Below, in pieces: positions 7,901-62,764 of a DNA stretch of 64,000 bases. The DNA comes from Rugalucina vietnamica (lineage: Eukaryota > Mollusca > Bivalvia > Lucinida > Lucinidae): contig OZ024882.1 of NCBI GenBank assembly GCA_964017185.1, positions 35,822,488-35,886,487 of the forward strand. Direction: 5' to 3'. A program made the position numbers and the translations under genes. Every line of letters begins with the position of its first letter. The first letter of the stretch is position 1. The notes beneath the pieces were generated by a model, which made no database searches, had not been told where the DNA came from, and was given only the letters and a program-made list of their open reading frames with translations.

Positions 7901-10900
7901 CCTGGCTAAAAGCTCGACTTTGATGGGACAGTCACTTGGTAAAAACACTGCCAATTTTGTCTGCAGTGTCTTTTATGTTTCCACTGCACTGCTGTTTTTG
8001 TATGTAAAGAGCAAACCACTGGTATTTCGTTTGCACTGTGGGAACAATTAGTAGGTAAATGGAGGGCAGTGGTTACAAATAATTGGTGCATAATGTTGCT
8101 TTGATTTATTATTTGAATGAATGCTAGGACTTGGGTAAAATCATTTATGACATAATTTTCTATTCATCAGTATTCTTTCAAAAATAGTGTTGTTATTGAA
8201 AGACATGTAAATACTAGTAAACTGTACTAAGATTCTTGCCTATAGGACAATAGACCTCACATGATTTGGGCTGTAAATCATTGCTGCGTCGGAACTATTA
8301 AGAGCCACTGTACGAGAAAACCAACAAAATGCTTAGGCAAAAACAAAGGCGCAGATCAGCTGTGCAGTAACTGCACAGCTGATCAGCGCCTTTGTTTTTC
8401 ACTACTAACGCAGATAGTACAATATCTCTTCTATTTTAACCCAAAAATTATGCTTCTAGCCTGCTTCAGTAGCTGCACATGCCGGTTTGTGTCAGACCTG
8501 GTCGGAAATCCAAAGTGTTGGTTTTCTCAAAGGCAAAGGCTCATAATCTGTACTAATCATCCTGATGTCATGAAGTATCATTTGAGCCGTCTCGTGGAAA
8601 AACCAACAATGTGGTTTCCGAAAAGGTCCGACACAAACCGGCCTGTACAAGGACAGAAGCAGGCTAGAAGCTTAAAATTTCATATTTAAGAAGCAGAGGA
8701 AGTTAAGTAAGTAAGTAAGTAAGTAAGTATGTAGCTTCTTTATTTTTAAGTAAGTAATTTCTTTATTTTACGAGGGTGACCCATTTGGATATATCCAATC
8801 TTCCATGGGGCCCTCAAAAGTGTTGTTTCCGTGTAGCGAAAACAAAGGCGCTGATCAGCTTCGCGGTTACCGCGAATCAGCTTCGCGGTTACCGCGAAGC
8901 TGATCTGCGTTTCTTGTTTTCGCATATACAGTTTGTTGGTTTTCTCATGAGGCGGCTTATTTGTTTGTATTTGCAAATTTTATAACAACTGCTTCAAACC
9001 TTTTTAATATTACCTGGATACAGTGTCATCTCTGTTTAACAGTGTTTGTAAATGAGCCTGTGCATGAGAAAACCAACAATTTGGGTTCTGACCAGGTCCG
9101 ACACAAACCGGGCTGTACAGTCACAGAAGATGATTAGAGGCTGGAAATTTTTTCGCAGTTACTGCGAAGCTGATCTGCACCTTTGTTTTCGCCAATGCAG
9201 ATTGTTGGTTTTCCCATGTGGCGGCTCAAATTTTGTTTTAGCTCACCTGAGCCTAAGGCTCACAAGGTGAGCTTATAGGATGGCCATGATCCGGCGTCCG
9301 TCCATCGTCCGTCCGTCCGTCGTCGTCCACAATTTCAAAGATCTTCTTCTCTGAAACCGCTTGACCGATCTAGTTGAAATTTTATGTGGAGCCTCCTTGG
9401 GTAGTGGCATTTCAAGTTTGATCGCGAAATCAAGGTCACATGACCGAGATGGCTGCCACGCCCATATATGGTAAAAACCCTTCAAAAATCTTCTTCTCCA
9501 GAACCGGTGGGCCGATTTCCACGAAACTTTATATGTAGCATCGGGGACTTCAGCCCATCATAGTTTGATAAAATGATGACCCTGGGATGACCTTGACCTA
9601 TTTTACGGCAAGGTCAAATTTGGAAACATAGGCTTTTACATGGGAAAAAGTGAAAAAAATGGATATGTTGGAAACTATTGCAGCCTGATGCTTGAAAAGT
9701 GGTAGATGCAAACAACTAATGGAGTAGATGAAGGTATGTGATTCATCTCTTGACCTTGGCCAGTCTGTCGTCCATTCACACTTTTCAAAGATCTTCTTCT
9801 CTGAAACTGCTGGGCCAATCAAAGTGAAATTTTATATGGAGCATCCATGGGTAGGGGAGACAAAAGTTTGATCGGGAAATCCAGGTCACATGACCAAGTT
9901 GGCCGCCACGCCCATATATGGTAAAAACCACTCAAAAAATCTTCTTCTCCAGAACCGGCAGACCGATTTTCATGAAACTTTATATGTAGCATTTGGGACT
10001 CCAGCCCATCATAGTTTGATAAAATGATGACCCTAGGATGACCTTGACCTAATTTACGGCAAGGTCAATTTTGGAAACATAGGCTTTAACATGGGAAAAA
10101 GTGAAAACTATGGATCTTTTGAAAACTATTGCAGCCTGATGCCTGAAAAGTGGTAGATGCAAACAACTAATGGAGTAGATGAAGGTATATGATTAATGTA
10201 GGTCAAGGTCATCTCTTGACCTTGGCCAGTCTGTCGTTCATACACACTTTTCAAAGATCTTCTCTTCTGAAACTGCTGGGCCAAGCAAAGTGAAATTTCA
10301 TGTGGAGCATCCATGGGTAGAGGAGACAAAAGTTTGATCGCGAAATCCAGGTCACATGACCAAGATGGCTGCCACGCCCATATATGGTAAAAACCACTCA
10401 AAAATCTTCTTCTCCAGAACCGGCAGGCCGATTTTCATGAAACTTGGTATGTAGCATTTGGGACTCCAGCCCATCATAATTTGATGAAATGATGACCCTA
10501 GGATGACCTTGACATATTTTACGGCAAGGTCAATTTTGGAATTATAGGCTTTTACATGAAAAAAAAGTGAAAACTCGATTTTTTGAAAACTATTGCAGCC
10601 TGATGCTTGAAAAGTGGTAGATGCAAACAACTAATGGAGTAGATGAAGGTATGTGATTAATTTAGGTCAAGGTCATCTCTTGACCTTGGCCAGTCTGTCG
10701 TCCATACACACTTTTCAAAGATCTTCTTCTCTGAAACTGCTTGGCCAATCAAAGTGAAATTTTATGTGGAGCATCCATGGGTAGGGGAGACAAAAGTTTG
10801 ATCGCGAAATCCAGGTCACATTACCCAGCCAGCATGCATATATCGGCCCGTCAGCGGCATTAAGTGGGCATCGCGGCATATCGGCCCCATGACTGCCCGT

Positions 10901-42822: not shown

Positions 42823-42832
42823 TCCACCTTTT

Positions 42833-44514
42833 TAGCTCACCTGAGCCGAAGGCTCACAGGTGAGCTAATAGGATGGCCATGATCCGGCGTCCGTCCGTCG
42901 TCGTCCGTCGTCGTCCACAATTTCAAAAATCTTCTTCTCTGAAACCGCTTGGCCGATCTAGTTGAAATTTTATGTGGAGCCTCCTTGGGTAGTGGCATTT
43001 CAAGTTTGATCGCGAAATCCAGGCCACATGACCAAGATGGCCGCCACGCCCATATATGTTAAAAACCGCTCAAAAATCTTCTTCTCCAGAACCGGTGGGC
43101 CGATTTCCTCTAAACTTGGTATGTAGCATCGGGGACTTAAGCCCATCATAGTTTGACAAAATGATGACCCTTGGATGACCTTGACCTATTTTACGGCAAG
43201 GTCAAATTTGGAAACATAGGCTTTTACATGGGAAAAAGTGAAAACTATGGATTTTTTGAAAACTATTGCAGCCTGAGGCCTGAAAAGTGGTAGATGCAAA
43301 CAACTAATGGAGTAGATGAAGGTATGTGATTAATTTAGGTCAAGGTCATCTCTTGACCTTGGCCAGTCTGTCGTCCATACACACTTTTCAAAGATCTTCT
43401 TCTCTGAAATTGCTGGGCCAATCAAAGTGAAATTTTATGTGGAGCATCCATGGGTAGGGGAGACGAAAGTTTGATCGCGAAATCCAGGTCACATGACCAA
43501 GATGGCCGCCACGCCCATATATGGTAAAAACCACTCAAAAATCTTCTTCTCCAGAACCGGCAGGCCGATTTTCATGAAATTTGGTATGTAGCATTTGGGA
43601 CTCCAGCCCATCATAGTTTGATAAAATGATGACCCTAGGATGACCTTGACTTATTTTACGGCAAGGTCAATTTTGGAAACATAGGCTTTTACATGTGAAA
43701 AAGTGAAAACTATGGATTTTTTGAAAACTATTGCAGCCTGATGCCTGAAAAGTGGTGGATGCAAACAACTAATGGAGTAGATGACGGTATATGATTAATT
43801 TAGGTCAAGGTCATCTCTTGACCTTGGCCAGTCTGTCGTCCATACACACTTTTCACAGATCTTCTTCTCTGAAACTGCTGGGCCAATCAAAGTGAAATTT
43901 TATGTGGAGCATCCATGGGTAGGGGAGACGAAAGTTTGATCGTGAAATCCAGGTCACATGACCAAGATGGCTGCCACGCCCATATATGGTAAAACCACTC
44001 AAAAATCTTCTTCTCCAGAACCGGCAGGCCAATTTTCACGAAAGTTTGTATGTAGCATTTTGGACTCCAGCCCATCATAGTTTGATCAAATGCTGACCAT
44101 AGGATGACCTTGACCTATTTTGCGGCAAGGTCAATTTTGGAAACATAGGCTTTTTCATGGGAAAAGGCGAAAACAATGGATATTTTGGAAACTGTTGCAG
44201 TCTGAGACCTGAAAGTTGCTAGATGCAGACAACTGATGGAGTCAATGAACGTAAGTAATTAATGATGGCCAAGGTCATTTCTTGACCTTGACCCAAGGTC
44301 ATTTGAATATCAAAATTAAAATTATAGTTTTCTCAGAAATCACTGGGTTTGGAAACTATTGCAGCCTGAGACCTGAATCTTTGCAGATGCAGACAACTTA
44401 TGAATTCAATAAAGGTGTGTGAGTATTCAAGGTCAAGGTCATTTCATGATGACTTAATACTCCAGGATCAGGCTTCAGGTGAGCGTTCTCAGGACCATTG
44501 GTCCTCTGGTTTTC
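42833..44514 (+). mobile_element. Large Helentron-associated-like element (family 1, copy c)
   Basis: The 5' end TTTTTAGCTCACCTGAGCC..GGCTCACAGGTGAGC and the CGTCCGTCCGTCGTCGTCC stretch, a ~460-bp unit core (starts near 42931, 43389, 43852), and the 3' end CAGGTGAGCG, hairpin AGGACCATTGGTCCT, CTGGTTTT are all intact. It is a near-consensus copy without nested inserts, so it is the best one to define the family. It contains two copies of AGGTCAAGGTCATCTCTTGA. Confidence 0.8.
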
Positions 44515-48919: not shown

Positions 48920-49153
48920 TGAGCCTGTGCATGAGAAAACCAACAATTTGGGTTCCGACCAGGTCCGACACAAACCGAGCTGTACAGCCACAGAAGATGG
49001 TTAGAGGCTGGAAATTTTGGATTTAGAAAGTAGAAGAATTCTACTATCTGTTGCGAAAACAAAGGCGCTGATCAGCTTCACAATTCCTGTGAAGCTGATC
49101 TGCGCCTTTGTTTTCGCCTATGCAGGTTGTTGGTTTTCCCATGTGGCGACTCA
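48920..49153 (+). mobile_element. MITE family A, copy 13
   Basis: It runs from TGAGCCTGTGCATGAG to CATGTGGCGACTCA. The hairpin GGCGCTGATCAGCTTCACA..TGTGAAGCTGATCTGCGCC is intact. It is close in sequence to copy 3. Confidence 0.85.
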
Positions 49154-49699: not shown

Positions 49700-49933
49700 T
49701 GAGCCACCACATCAGAAAAGCAACAATTTGCATATGCGAAAACAAAGGCACAGCCCAGATTCGTGGCTACTGCAAAGCTGATCAGCGCCTTTGTTTTTGC
49801 TACACAGACAGTCAATACATCTTCTTAAATCGAAATGTTTAAGCTTCTAGCCTACTTCTGTGACTGTACAGCCTGGTTTGTGTCGGACATGGTTTGAAAC
49901 TTGAATTGTTGAGTTTTTTCATGCGAAGGCTCA
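49700..49933 (-). mobile_element. MITE family A, copy 14, supplying the SEC62 stop codon
   Basis: It runs from TGAGCCACCACATCAGAAAA to CATGCGAAGGCTCA. Its right terminal bases TCA (49931-49933) are, on the minus strand, the TGA that ends SEC62. The proximal 3'UTR would therefore be MITE sequence. Confidence 0.85.
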
Positions 49934-52900: not shown

Positions 52901-55900
52901 CTTGACAAGACAAAATCCATCTAAAAAACTTTATCTGCAGACTGATTTTTAAATTATTTGCAGGTCCTGTTCAGACAAACCAACATCACGATCTTGACTA
53001 GAACACAGTTTAAATTTTTGCAATCATACAAAAGACACATGAGCCTCCTCATGGGAAAACCAACAATCTGCATAGGCAAAAACAAAGGCGCAGATCAGCT
53101 TCTTGAAAACCGCGAAGCTGATCAGCGACTTTGTTTCCGCTACACGGATAGTACAATCCCTCTTCTACTTAAATCTGAAATTTAAAGCTTCTAGCTCTTT
53201 TCTGTGACTGTACAGGTCGGTTTGTGTCGGACCTGTTCAGAAACCACATTGTTGGTTTTCCCACAAGGGGGCTCAAATTTAGCTACCAAAACTCAGTTAT
53301 CAGAGGTCATGTTTCACACACTAGGTATTTTCCCACCTTTTTTTCTTCTTTCTTCACTTCTTCTAGTTCTTTCTCTGGTTTCTTTGTCTTTTTGTCCTTC
53401 TTACTCTTCTTGTCCTTTAAATAGACATTTGAGCCTCATCATGAGAAAACCAACAATCTGATTTCCAAACAGGTTTCACGCAAACCGAAAAGTACAAGCA
53501 CAGAAGATGGCTAGAGGCTGGGAATTTTCGATTTAGAAAGTAGAGGAATTGTGGTAGCTGTGTAGTGAAAAACAAAGGCGCTGATCAGCTTCGCAGTTAC
53601 TGAGAAGTTGATCTGCATCTTTGTTTTTGCAGATGCAGATTGTTGGTTTTCTCATGACCTGGCTCATTTCTGATTAATTAAAAATCATAGAAAACCTGGC
53701 TCATTTCTGATTATTTAAAAATCATATCAGCCTGACCAATCAAAATGTGAGGCAAAAATCTAAGAACCCCCAAGAAATATCACCTGACAGATACAAGCAC
53801 AGAGCTTGGTTTGTCTCACATGTGCCACTGTGAAGGGCTCAAACTCACACAGTGTATAGGGGTGAGATGACCAAATTATTAAGCTTGGTAATGAAATCAG
53901 TGCTCTTAACCACTCTGACATGGGGGTCCCACAAAATAAATATTTGATATGGGGATAACTCTATTCAATTCCAAGTTTTCCTTTGGGTTGGATACCATTG
54001 GAAATTTTGCTTTACTGTGATGCATAATTAGCAAAGCACTCTTATCTTGATAATCTTTTAGTAATTGGGCCATTTCTTGAGAGAATCTTTTGATTGTTTG
54101 AAGGGTTGTAATTTTATAGAAATTCCAGGACAAAGTCCAGGCACGTTTCTGAAAGTCAATGGGTTTTCCAGGACAAAGGCCATTTTCACAGGTCTGTAAG
54201 GACCCTATGTAAAGTTGCTTTACAAACATCTTTATTTTGCTGCTTCCTAAATCCTGAGTTTATGCCTTTCTCCATCTTCTGAGGCTGTATTAAACCAGGA
54301 TGTATATTGTTTGTTTGTATTTAGGTTTAAAGCCCCAGTCAACAATTTTTCAGTCATGTCAATTCCTGGGTATTTACCAGTACTCTGGGGAGTTAATGTG
54401 TCTTGCTCAAGGACACACCACAACACCCCGAGTGGGGTGGATCAAAGACCTCTTGAGGCTGATGCTCTACAACCAAGCCCTCTTGCCATCTTCTGAGGCT
54501 GTATAAAACCCTATATATGTTATGTAAGAACTTGTCTTACACCCTGATGTCACTTTTGTGCAAAGGCTTGTGAATACTTTGGGAGATCAAGTTTGTTTCT
54601 GAAACAGTGAGATCAAATGGACTCTGGTATCAGTGGTATGTATCAGTTTCACTTTCAACTGATCAAGGTGGTCTTTGGTTTATACATGACAAAAATATGC
54701 TCAATGTACAGATCAATAATATTTAGTTACACACGACACTGATACAATATGATATAACATCATGTTTTCTTCCAGTTTACATCAGGAAAACATGTCCGTG
54801 AAATGTATACCCCCTTAAACCCCACTGTTATATAGAAAAACTGGAGTTTGCAGGGGTATACCTATTTTTCTTATTTCTGCTCCAAAACATAGATTGTGGG
54901 TACTCATTAGAACCACCTCGCTGAGGGGCTTCTAACGAGTACCCACAATCTATGTTTTCAGCAAAAATAAGACAATCTATGTTTTCAGCAAAAATAAGAA
55001 AATTATTTATAAAATTCTCTGAAATTTTTCTATTTTTACAACTAAGTCTTTGTATATTGCAGGGGCGTGTTTTCGTAATGTGGGACTTTTACCCAATATA
55101 GGGATGTACTGACATGTCAAAATTGCTTGTGCCATACCTTGTTGCTTTATGTCCCAATCAATACCCATGGTCATGTCAAGATGTTGCCTCCCATTTTATG
55201 GATTGTGTCACATGTTTTATGTCCCAAGCAATAGCTATGGTCGAGTCAGGATATTGATTCCTATTTTACAGGACTTCTACCCAACATAGGGATGTCATGA
55301 CATCCGAAATACCAGAGTGGTTTGTGTCAGACCTTTTCAAAACTCAAATTAAGTTTTCTCATGTACCCACCTCCGTTGCTGATTCTTTTTCCTTTTCTTC
55401 TTCCTTCTTTCTCTCCTTTTCTTCTATTTCTTTCTTTTTCTTTCTCTTCTCTTTATCTTTCCTCTTTTCTACTCTGTCTGCTCTGTGGAACAACCCTTTC
55501 TCTAACATACTGCAAAACAATCAACAGAGGGAATGGTCACAAACTTGGCATTGTAAGAAATGAGCTGTGACATGAGAAAACCGGTCTTCGGGTTTTCCGA
55601 CCAGGTCTGACATAAACCAACCTGAGCACCAATAGAAGTTGGCTAGAAGCTTGAAATTTTGGATTTAGGAAGAAGATAAATTGTCCTATCCATGTAGCAA
55701 TAACAAAGGCGCTGATCAGCTGTGCAGTTACTGCGCAGCTGATCAGCTCCTTTGTTGTCGCATAGGCAAAAATCTGGTTTTCTGGTGACGCGGCTTAAAT
55801 ACATTTAGTATGTGTTTATAAAAGAGAACTTTGCTGTCTGCTTGTCCACAATGGGCTGGATGTCAGTTGTTAGCATGAAAATGGGTACTGAACATTGATT

Positions 55901-60414: not shown

Positions 60415-62764
60415 TATGGTGTACTGGAAGGGTCAAAATGACCGAAGTGGTTAACCGATCGGTTAACCGATCTTCTATGCCTATTTTGAAATAGGCATGC
60501 ACCCGCAAATATAGGGGTGCACCCGCATATTTAGAGGTTCACCCCCATTTTCAGATACGGGTTAACCTGCATTTTAGGGGTTAACCCGCAATTTAGCGGT
60601 GCATGCCTATTTTAGAGGTTAACCTCTGAAAATGCAGGTGCACCCCTATTTTAGGGGTGCATGCCTATTTTAGGGGTTAACCTCTACTTTACGGGTGCAC
60701 CTCTAAAAATACGGGTGCAAGCCTAAAATAGGCATGCACCGCTATTTAGAGGTTAACCTCTATTTTAGGGGTGCACCCAGATAGCACGTATACATTGGCC
60801 CTCCATTGCCCATCGGACGTCGCACGATTGGCCCATGGTTGTAAATCTTGAATGGGCCAACGTAGCTTTTGCTCATCGGCCCATCTTTGGCCCATAACAA
60901 TGGTTCGTGATTGGGCCAATCATGGCTGAGGTTTTGCATTTTTGTTGGCCCATCACTGTATGAATGTGCTCATTACAAGCTATTGACGATGTATTTCTAT
61001 TGCATATGTCCACTCGGTACAGTTTCTTGTTCTGCAGCACCATGGTGACAGTCTAGCTTGGTCTCTTGTCTTTGGAGAAGGTAAACTCTTCATTTTTCGT
61101 TTTCTCTGTGTTGTATTACTTTGACGACTGGTCTTCTGAAAACAAACGAATAAATACAGCACCATGAAAAAAACATAAACTAGCCTCATTTATGCAACAT
61201 TTTAACGCATGTATTTTAGCTCATAAAGGAATAGTTGTTAAAGAAATACATGTTTAAACTAAATCCTCTTTGTTGCAACGAAGTATAAAACAATGAAGTA
61301 TATAATATGAAATCAATTATATTTTCATATCTGCCTTTAATAAGATGGAGAAATGAGCTTAATAAGTAATGCAAAATAATAAATAAAACTTACCTTCTAA
61401 ACCTCAGAGTGTCTGTTTCTTAACATGCAAAACCGACTTCTCTAAAACTTCATGCGAAACACCTGTTAATAATTCTCACATGCCTGAGAAATTTTCTCGT
61501 TGCTATGACAACTGATGTACTCTTGTACTCTGGCTGGAGCAGCGAAGCAAATAATAAACCACAATATTATGATGTTACAGTGAAAAATGTGTTAACTTCA
61601 ATTTTGCTCCCATTGCTTACTAAATATTTAAAGAATAGATATAGAATAAATTTAAATGGCCTGGTCAAGGAAGTAACTGCTAATTAGGATAATGGTTTTA
61701 AAATCATTGATGTTGATTTACATATAAATCATAATAATTATTTATGATTGATATATAAATTGAAACTATGAGGAAACTGGACTGTTTATTAATTAAGTCT
61801 CTTTGTTGAATAAGATTTAAAGACAATTAATCGATTACAAATTAACACCGGTCAGTATTTAATCATATACGAATCGGCCAATGATATGCCAACCATCGGC
61901 CAACAGAAAGTTTTTATTTATTTTCTCAGACCCTTTTGTTTGAGCCTTGTCATACAAGGTCACTACAGTTAACACTTTCCTTAAATATATGTCAATTCGA
62001 ACTTAAACTATTATGCATTAAAGTCATCTTAACTACTAAACTATAAAAAAAAAATCGTTTTTCTATTCCAGCTGGCACAAAGCATCAACGAACGTTGTGT
62101 GCCTGCTGGGTATAAGTGCATCATTTATTACAATGGCTAACAACTATTGGGTCACTCTTGTTTCTGTGAATTTAAAGAAAATCACTTTCATGATCCGTTG
62201 CAGTAACAGATCGTTTGCCAAAATTGGGCCAACGTCGGAATGTTGGCCCAATGATATTTGCTATCTGGGCACCCGCATATTTGCAGGTGCATGTCTAAAT
62301 ATAGGGGTTAACCCGCAATTTAAAAATAGGGGTTAACCCCTATTTTTAGGGGTCCATGCCTAAATAGAGGTGAACCCCTAAATAGGGGTGAACCTGCAAA
62401 AATAGAGGTTAACCCCTATTTTAAGATTGCGGGTGCACCCCTATATTTAGGCTTTAACCTGTAAATATGCGGGTGCACCCCTAAATAGAGGTTAACCCCT
62501 ATATAGCGGTGCATGCCTATTTTAGGGGTGCACCCGTATTTTTAGAGGTGCACCCGTAAAGTAGAGGTTAACCCCTAAAATAGGCATGCACCCCTATAAT
62601 AGGCATGTACCTGCATTTTAGGGGTTAACCTCTATTTTAAAATAGGGGTGAACCTCTAAATATGCGGGTGCACCCCTATATTTGCGGGTGCATGTCTATT
62701 TTGAAATAGGCATGGACCGATCGGTTAACCACTTCGGTCATTTTGACCCTTCCAGTACACCATA
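60415..62764. mobile_element. Fold-back array of palindromic words
   Basis: The ends TATGGTGTACTGGAAGGGTC (60415) and its exact inverse (to 62764), followed by AAAATGACCGAAGTGGTTAA, form ~48-bp perfect inverted ends. Inside, the 8-bp palindromes GGTTAACC and GGTGCACC and the related GGCATGC/GTGCATGCC words recur every ~20 bp, joined by AT-rich spacers such as TATTTTAG or GCAAATATAG. Word order looks shuffled, not periodic. The array is split into 60460-60772 and 62273-62712 by the element at 60777-62268. No coding capacity. Confidence 0.8.
60777..62268. mobile_element. Inverted-repeat DNA element nested in the palindromic array
   Basis: The termini CCAGATAGCA and TGCTATCTGG are flanked by GCAC on both sides (60773-60776, 62269-62272), a 4-bp target duplication. 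GGCCCAT/TTGGCCCA words fill both subterminal zones (60797-60960 and 61873-62250). The central ~900 bp is AT-rich without a transposase. The ends follow the same rule as those of the 10825-11856 element. Confidence 0.8.

Follow-up and report, generated by a model that had tools for sequence, protein, structure and literature searches.

A probable non-autonomous fold-back transposon with IS3EU-like ends and arms of palindromic half-words in the genome of Rugalucina vietnamica

Fold-back elements with arms composed of short repeats, as in the element described here, include FB of Drosophila and TU of sea urchins, but their repeats are direct and tandem rather than palindromic words and their flanking duplications measure 8-9 bp; Mutator-type fold-back elements have target site duplications (TSDs) of about 8-11 bp. 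Tetris, a fold-back element of Drosophila virilis, is equally non-autonomous, with long inverted arms containing internal repeats and with no partner found, but its internal tandem repeats of ~220 bp and its TSDs of 8-10 bp differ from the ~20-bp palindromic units and 6-bp TSDs seen here (PMC4079207). Galileo of the P superfamily shares the fold-back-like long inverted repeats, the internal repeats and the structural variation between copies, but possesses ~140-bp direct repeats, 7-bp TSDs and a known transposase (PMC4168063), and additional binding sites for its transposase lie in the arm-internal repeats (cited in PMC4079207). With respect to the termini, IS3EU elements always have TA..TA ends and usually a TSD of 6 bp, and the related GingerRoot elements have a TSD of 6 bp and mostly TA..TA ends (PMC10045372), with TAYGG..CCRTA ends and 6-bp TSDs described for fungal IS3EU elements (PMC12730594). 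The element analysed here shares with IS3EU/GingerRoot the TA..TA ends, which read TATGG..CCATA, and the 6-bp TSDs, but no transposase has been seen with these ends and the arms consist of palindromic words. The initial annotation of the locus knew of no named family with this structure; however, the ends and the 6-bp duplications fit IS3EU/GingerRoot, and fold-back elements with arm-internal repeats are a known kind. While the non-autonomous fold-back transposon as such is thus familiar, the joining of IS3EU-like ends to arms built of palindromic half-words found no match in the literature searched, a body of text with most subscription papers and Repbase outside its scope, in which 'IS3EU' appeared alongside 'foldback' just in a cited title and alongside 'fold-back' nowhere.

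The window, the whole stretch of 64,000 nucleotides analysed, belongs to a genome assembly of 1.09 Gb in 47 contigs and harbours at positions 60415-62764 a fold-back element of 2,350 bp, in which two arms surround a middle part. Inverted ends, initially estimated as perfect over ~48 bp, are indeed present and exact over 49 bp. The features of the element are:

60415..60463, + strand: left outer terminal inverted repeat, 49 bp, starting TATGGTGTACTGGAAGGGTCAAAATGACC, 100% complementary to 62716-62764
60415..60775, + strand: left arm, 361 bp, with a palindromic word roughly every 20 bp; relative to the consensus, one 19-bp unit is missing
60652..60719, + strand: inter-arm tract, left, 68 nt equal to the inverted right arm, a variant common to copy L010
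60776..62269, no strand assigned: nested unrelated element, 1,494 bp, with ends CCCAGATAGCA..TGCTATCTGGG and a 2-bp duplication CA at 60774-60775 / 62270-62271
62270..62764, + strand: right arm, ~496 bp, with 5 mismatches against the consensus in the right 490 alignment columns
62529..62596, - strand: inter-arm tract, right partner, 68 nt
62716..62764, - strand: right outer terminal inverted repeat, 49 bp

The DNA between the ends had been characterised as almost only palindromes, which does not apply to 1,494 of the 2,350 bp, as the nested element contains 12 palindromic 8-mers compared with a shuffle mean of 7.9 and maximum of 17 and so shows no excess of words. Relatives of the nested element occur in at least 39 other places with 87-97% identity (40 of 626 candidates scored); most of the other copies that were read measure ~1,570 bp, so that ~90 bp close to the right end are missing from the one in the window. 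In L058, an older member of the fold-back family, a different nested palindromic insertion is present, starting CCCAGCGGGCACATGACGTC. Upon removal of the nested element, the window copy comprises 854 bp, and 835 of 854 aligned bases (97.8%) match the 874-bp family consensus, relative to which it lacks one 19-bp unit and a single base. The element is without a gene of its own. Its terminal letters TATGG..CCATA are found in the window copy and in the family copies, with mutated ends in a few of them (TGTGG in L020, TGGGG in L036). The long inverted arms with internal subrepeats and little or no middle are those of the fold-back structural class, and a single strand of copy L011 gives one long hairpin with -383 kcal/mol versus -114 for 20 shuffles (z -43).

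Copies of the element are dispersed throughout the genome. The left arm as query recovered at least 40 other places with 81-96% identity (40 of 376 candidates scored), which makes an assembly error, named initially as a possible explanation of the pattern, unlikely. When up to 3 mismatches were allowed, a 29-bp pattern of the end matched 236 times in forward and 236 times in reverse orientation, with 0 and 0 matches in the control. From the 100 places listed out of these 472 ends, 30 loci were cut, of which 14 contained the fold-back family and 16 a 455-bp relative, family C, with words confined to the left 160 bp and nearly identical flanking sequence each time. The near-constant flanks identify family C as a passenger within a larger repeat, and the 472 ends are consequently not equal to 236 independent insertions. 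In these 16 of 30 end-centred loci (L042-L068), the family C flanks ACCAAG / ACTAAG represent a 6-bp duplication with one mismatch. A separate family 'B' among the end-centred loci was dismissed, being the same family in opposite orientation.

Distinct copies of 780-960 bp, 23 in total, were drawn from loci L010-L068, and four whose left end is rearranged (L034, L035, L038, L050) were left out before alignment. The other 19 of the 23 are collinear from end to end on the 874-bp consensus and about 3% apart (median pairwise divergence 0.029, range 0.006-0.159), which argues that the word order has been set once and subsequently amplified. The reshuffling of words between copies, as initially proposed, is thus not seen in these 19 copies. 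The initial annotation had regarded a fixed order in other copies, if explained by simple tandem duplication, as speaking against its reading; the order is fixed, but simple tandem duplication does not explain it, with no autocorrelation of adjacent half-words at lags 1-7.

The richness in palindromic words holds true for both arms. Palindromic 8-mers number 11 in the left arm (361 bp) versus a mean of 2.0 and a maximum of 6 in 200 dinucleotide shuffles, and 15 in the right arm (496 bp) versus a shuffle mean of 3.3 and maximum of 10, an approximately five-fold excess in both. The word GGTTAACC is present 14 times in the arms and 2 times in the window beyond the element, and GGTGCACC 9 times and once, respectively. 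Word centres in the family consensus are separated by 41 spacings, of which 34 measure 16-25 bp, with a mode of 20. Read outward from the dyad centres, 68 of 80 half-words are one of eight 7-mers, namely ACCCCTA (24), ACCTCTA (13), ACCCGCA (9), ATGCCTA (8), ACCCGTA (4), ACCGCTA (4), ACCTGCA (4) and ATGTCTA (2), so that the free mixing of units noticed at the outset is recovered as a small common vocabulary without tandem order. The two half-words facing each other across a dyad differ slightly less than shuffled ones do (2.05 versus 2.42 mismatches, P 0.021), which does not apply to half-words across linkers (P 0.68), and the half-words of the two arms correspond in inverted register.

An even spacing that could place binding sites on one face of the DNA, as had been suggested, finds no correlate, since at 10.5 bp the phase coherence does not exceed chance (0.13 versus a null mean of 0.15, P 0.54); at 19.5-20 bp it reaches 0.34-0.40, not beyond the null (P 0.19). 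Among the 19 copies, word cores vary by 0.024 and linkers by 0.031, not a significant difference (P 0.22) and therefore no demonstration of a binding-site function, and the outer 29 bp vary by 0.014 in copies that had been selected by these very ends. Covariation at fixed dyad centres was observed in 19 of 25 words versus 12.9 expected (P 0.017), with the number of 25 inflated by the homology of the two arms. An all-word covariation (P<0.0002) was discarded, as its centres had been picked for maximal symmetry.

Signs of copying from one arm to the other are found on top of the fixed order. In the window copy, positions 60652-60719 are the inverse of 62529-62596 over 68 nt with zero mismatches where the consensus has 19 nt; the letters of the right arm have been taken by the left arm, with the right arm unchanged. 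The variant is also present in copy L010, and clustered letters of the opposite arm occur in several other copies. Of 170 unique half-word changes from the 19 copies, three older copies included and the events perhaps partly shared by descent, 36 landed on another word of the vocabulary, whereas the observed mutation spectrum predicts 20.8 (P 0.0009). However, within a copy the left arm resembles the right arm at 72-81%, no more closely than arms from different copies resemble each other, which excludes wholesale homogenisation and suggests that arm-to-arm copying is rare or old. The template switching or unit copying initially envisaged is partly supported by the inter-arm tract and the excess of vocabulary changes, but a reshuffled order is not seen among the 19 aligned copies.

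The flanks of the copies carry duplications of a defined length. At 32 flank-distinct sites, 8 of which are copies of the one passenger insertion of family C, the duplication is exactly 6 bp in 14 cases and longer in none; five further sites show one mismatch in 6 bp, 13 have no 6-bp duplication even with one mismatch allowed, and re-paired flanks as a control give 3.4% with at most one mismatch. Ends and duplications agree with those described for IS3EU/GingerRoot, and the 6 bp as longest exact duplication at all 32 sites stay below the length in Mutator-type fold-back elements. The window copy itself has no visible duplication, its flanks TTAGCA / CAAAAG differing at 5 of 6 positions, perhaps through later change of the flanks.

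An autonomous relative sharing the end TATGGTGTACTGGAAGG, which the initial annotation had recommended to look for, was not found through loci with PF24764 genes or end-pattern searches. Integrase genes with PF24764 (rva_4), which we take to stand for IS3EU, have 134 matches in the genome and none in the 14 control genomes. At seven PF24764 loci from five groups, the family end is absent within 4 mismatches, and one weak low-complexity candidate end pair was noted at locus L075. Searches for the end pattern followed by other sequence gave in a first set 10 places, six of the L034 type and four resembling the right end of family C. Of a second set of 10 places, four were fetched, two being family C, one a family end of 49 bp that continues into other sequence and one a 23-bp end whose surroundings include an open frame, presumably of a reverse transcriptase. 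The 10 places of a third set are, judged from the letters alone, minor variants of family A or family C. The end patterns cover part of the possible sequences, and a partner with changed ends or an excluded following base would escape; the autonomous partner may be lost or may have changed ends.

As a separate observation, PF24764 genes often occur as pairs in inverted orientation, separated by 9-13 kb, as if located near both ends of large elements:

C3:1767390 (+) and 1776231 (-), inverted pair of PF24764 genes
C3:40272126 (+) and 40283686 (-), inverted pair of PF24764 genes
C6:8285823 (+) and 8299092 (-), inverted pair of PF24764 genes
C6:59342554 (+) and 59353815 (-), inverted pair of PF24764 genes

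Tandem repeats of ~465 bp in the window (9232-10828 and 42829-44293) recur at another place of the genome, beside a PF24764 gene (L069 4752-5953, ~91-93% identity), and a dispersed repeat of ~237 bp with inverted ends is located at L069 3897-4133 and in the window at 8302-8543, 48920-49153, 49700-49933, 53040-53264 and other positions.

The element is most probably a non-autonomous fold-back or MITE DNA transposon with a giant hairpin and a consensus of 874 bp, moved in trans by a cut-and-paste transposase that would most readily be of the IS3EU type (IS3EU/GingerRoot). IS3EU is the best filing rather than a proof, resting on the ends and the 6-bp duplications, because no transposase gene with these ends has been found. 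The same transposon might have been mobilised by another superfamily such as a Mutator-type or hAT6-type transposase, as the majority of fold-back elements are regarded as members of Mutator (PMC4079207), hAT families with 6-bp TSDs exist (PMC12730594) and no partner gene was found in this genome in the loci and end-pattern matches read. This origin is nevertheless unlikely given duplications of exactly 6 bp and never longer, compared with 8-10 bp in the Mutator-like Tetris, and ends that fit the TAYGG..CCRTA of IS3EU as described (PMC12730594).

An active word-by-word reshuffling, producing copies with the same ends but a different order of words, would be compatible with the inter-arm tract common to the window copy and L010, the rewritten left ends of L034, L035, L038 and L050, the 19-bp unit that the window copy is short of and the excess of vocabulary-to-vocabulary changes; it is largely refuted between copies by the one order kept in 19 of 23, and L034, L035 and L038 have common flanks and represent one insertion that has been copied, which leaves this process improbable. 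The bounding of the copies by the same ends with 6-bp duplications, together with the absence of significant extra word conservation and of helical phasing, equally argues against the reading as a satellite-like or regulatory array in which a host protein's binding sites are maintained and the transposon ends are incidental; the small half-word vocabulary and the covariation at dyad centres could be cited for this reading, which we consider very improbable. With arms dispersed over at least 40 other places among those listed and a precise nested insertion with its 2-bp duplication, an assembly artefact, for which no evidence was seen, has a negligible probability.

If the element is a fold-back transposon mobilised in trans by an IS3EU-type transposase, an ancestral end region would have given rise to an array of ~20 palindromic units of 19-20 bp with two half-words each, which would then have been duplicated in inverted orientation, with arms today ~79% alike, and amplified. 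The words might act as extra transposase-binding half-sites or merely in hairpin upkeep; with the precedent of extra transposase-binding sites in the arm repeats of Galileo, they are probably extra transposase sites. Occasional copying between paired arms, by hairpin template switch or gap repair, would have rewritten words within the vocabulary. More tentatively, the arms may even constitute a self-editing word array in a fold-back IS3EU-type transposon with intra-element correction, in which ~40 dyad units of eight half-words would be held within their vocabulary by paired arms copying through the hairpin, thereby renewing extra transposase half-sites while the ends stay unchanged.

In this element, a rarely described superfamily signature, 6-bp duplications and TAYGG..CCRTA, is joined to a fold-back architecture of palindromic half-words. 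If copying between arms turns out to be general, template switching in the hairpin could be counted from the record naturally preserved in the many young copies, which would also offer a convenient test of whether a larger number of subterminal sites increases transposition.
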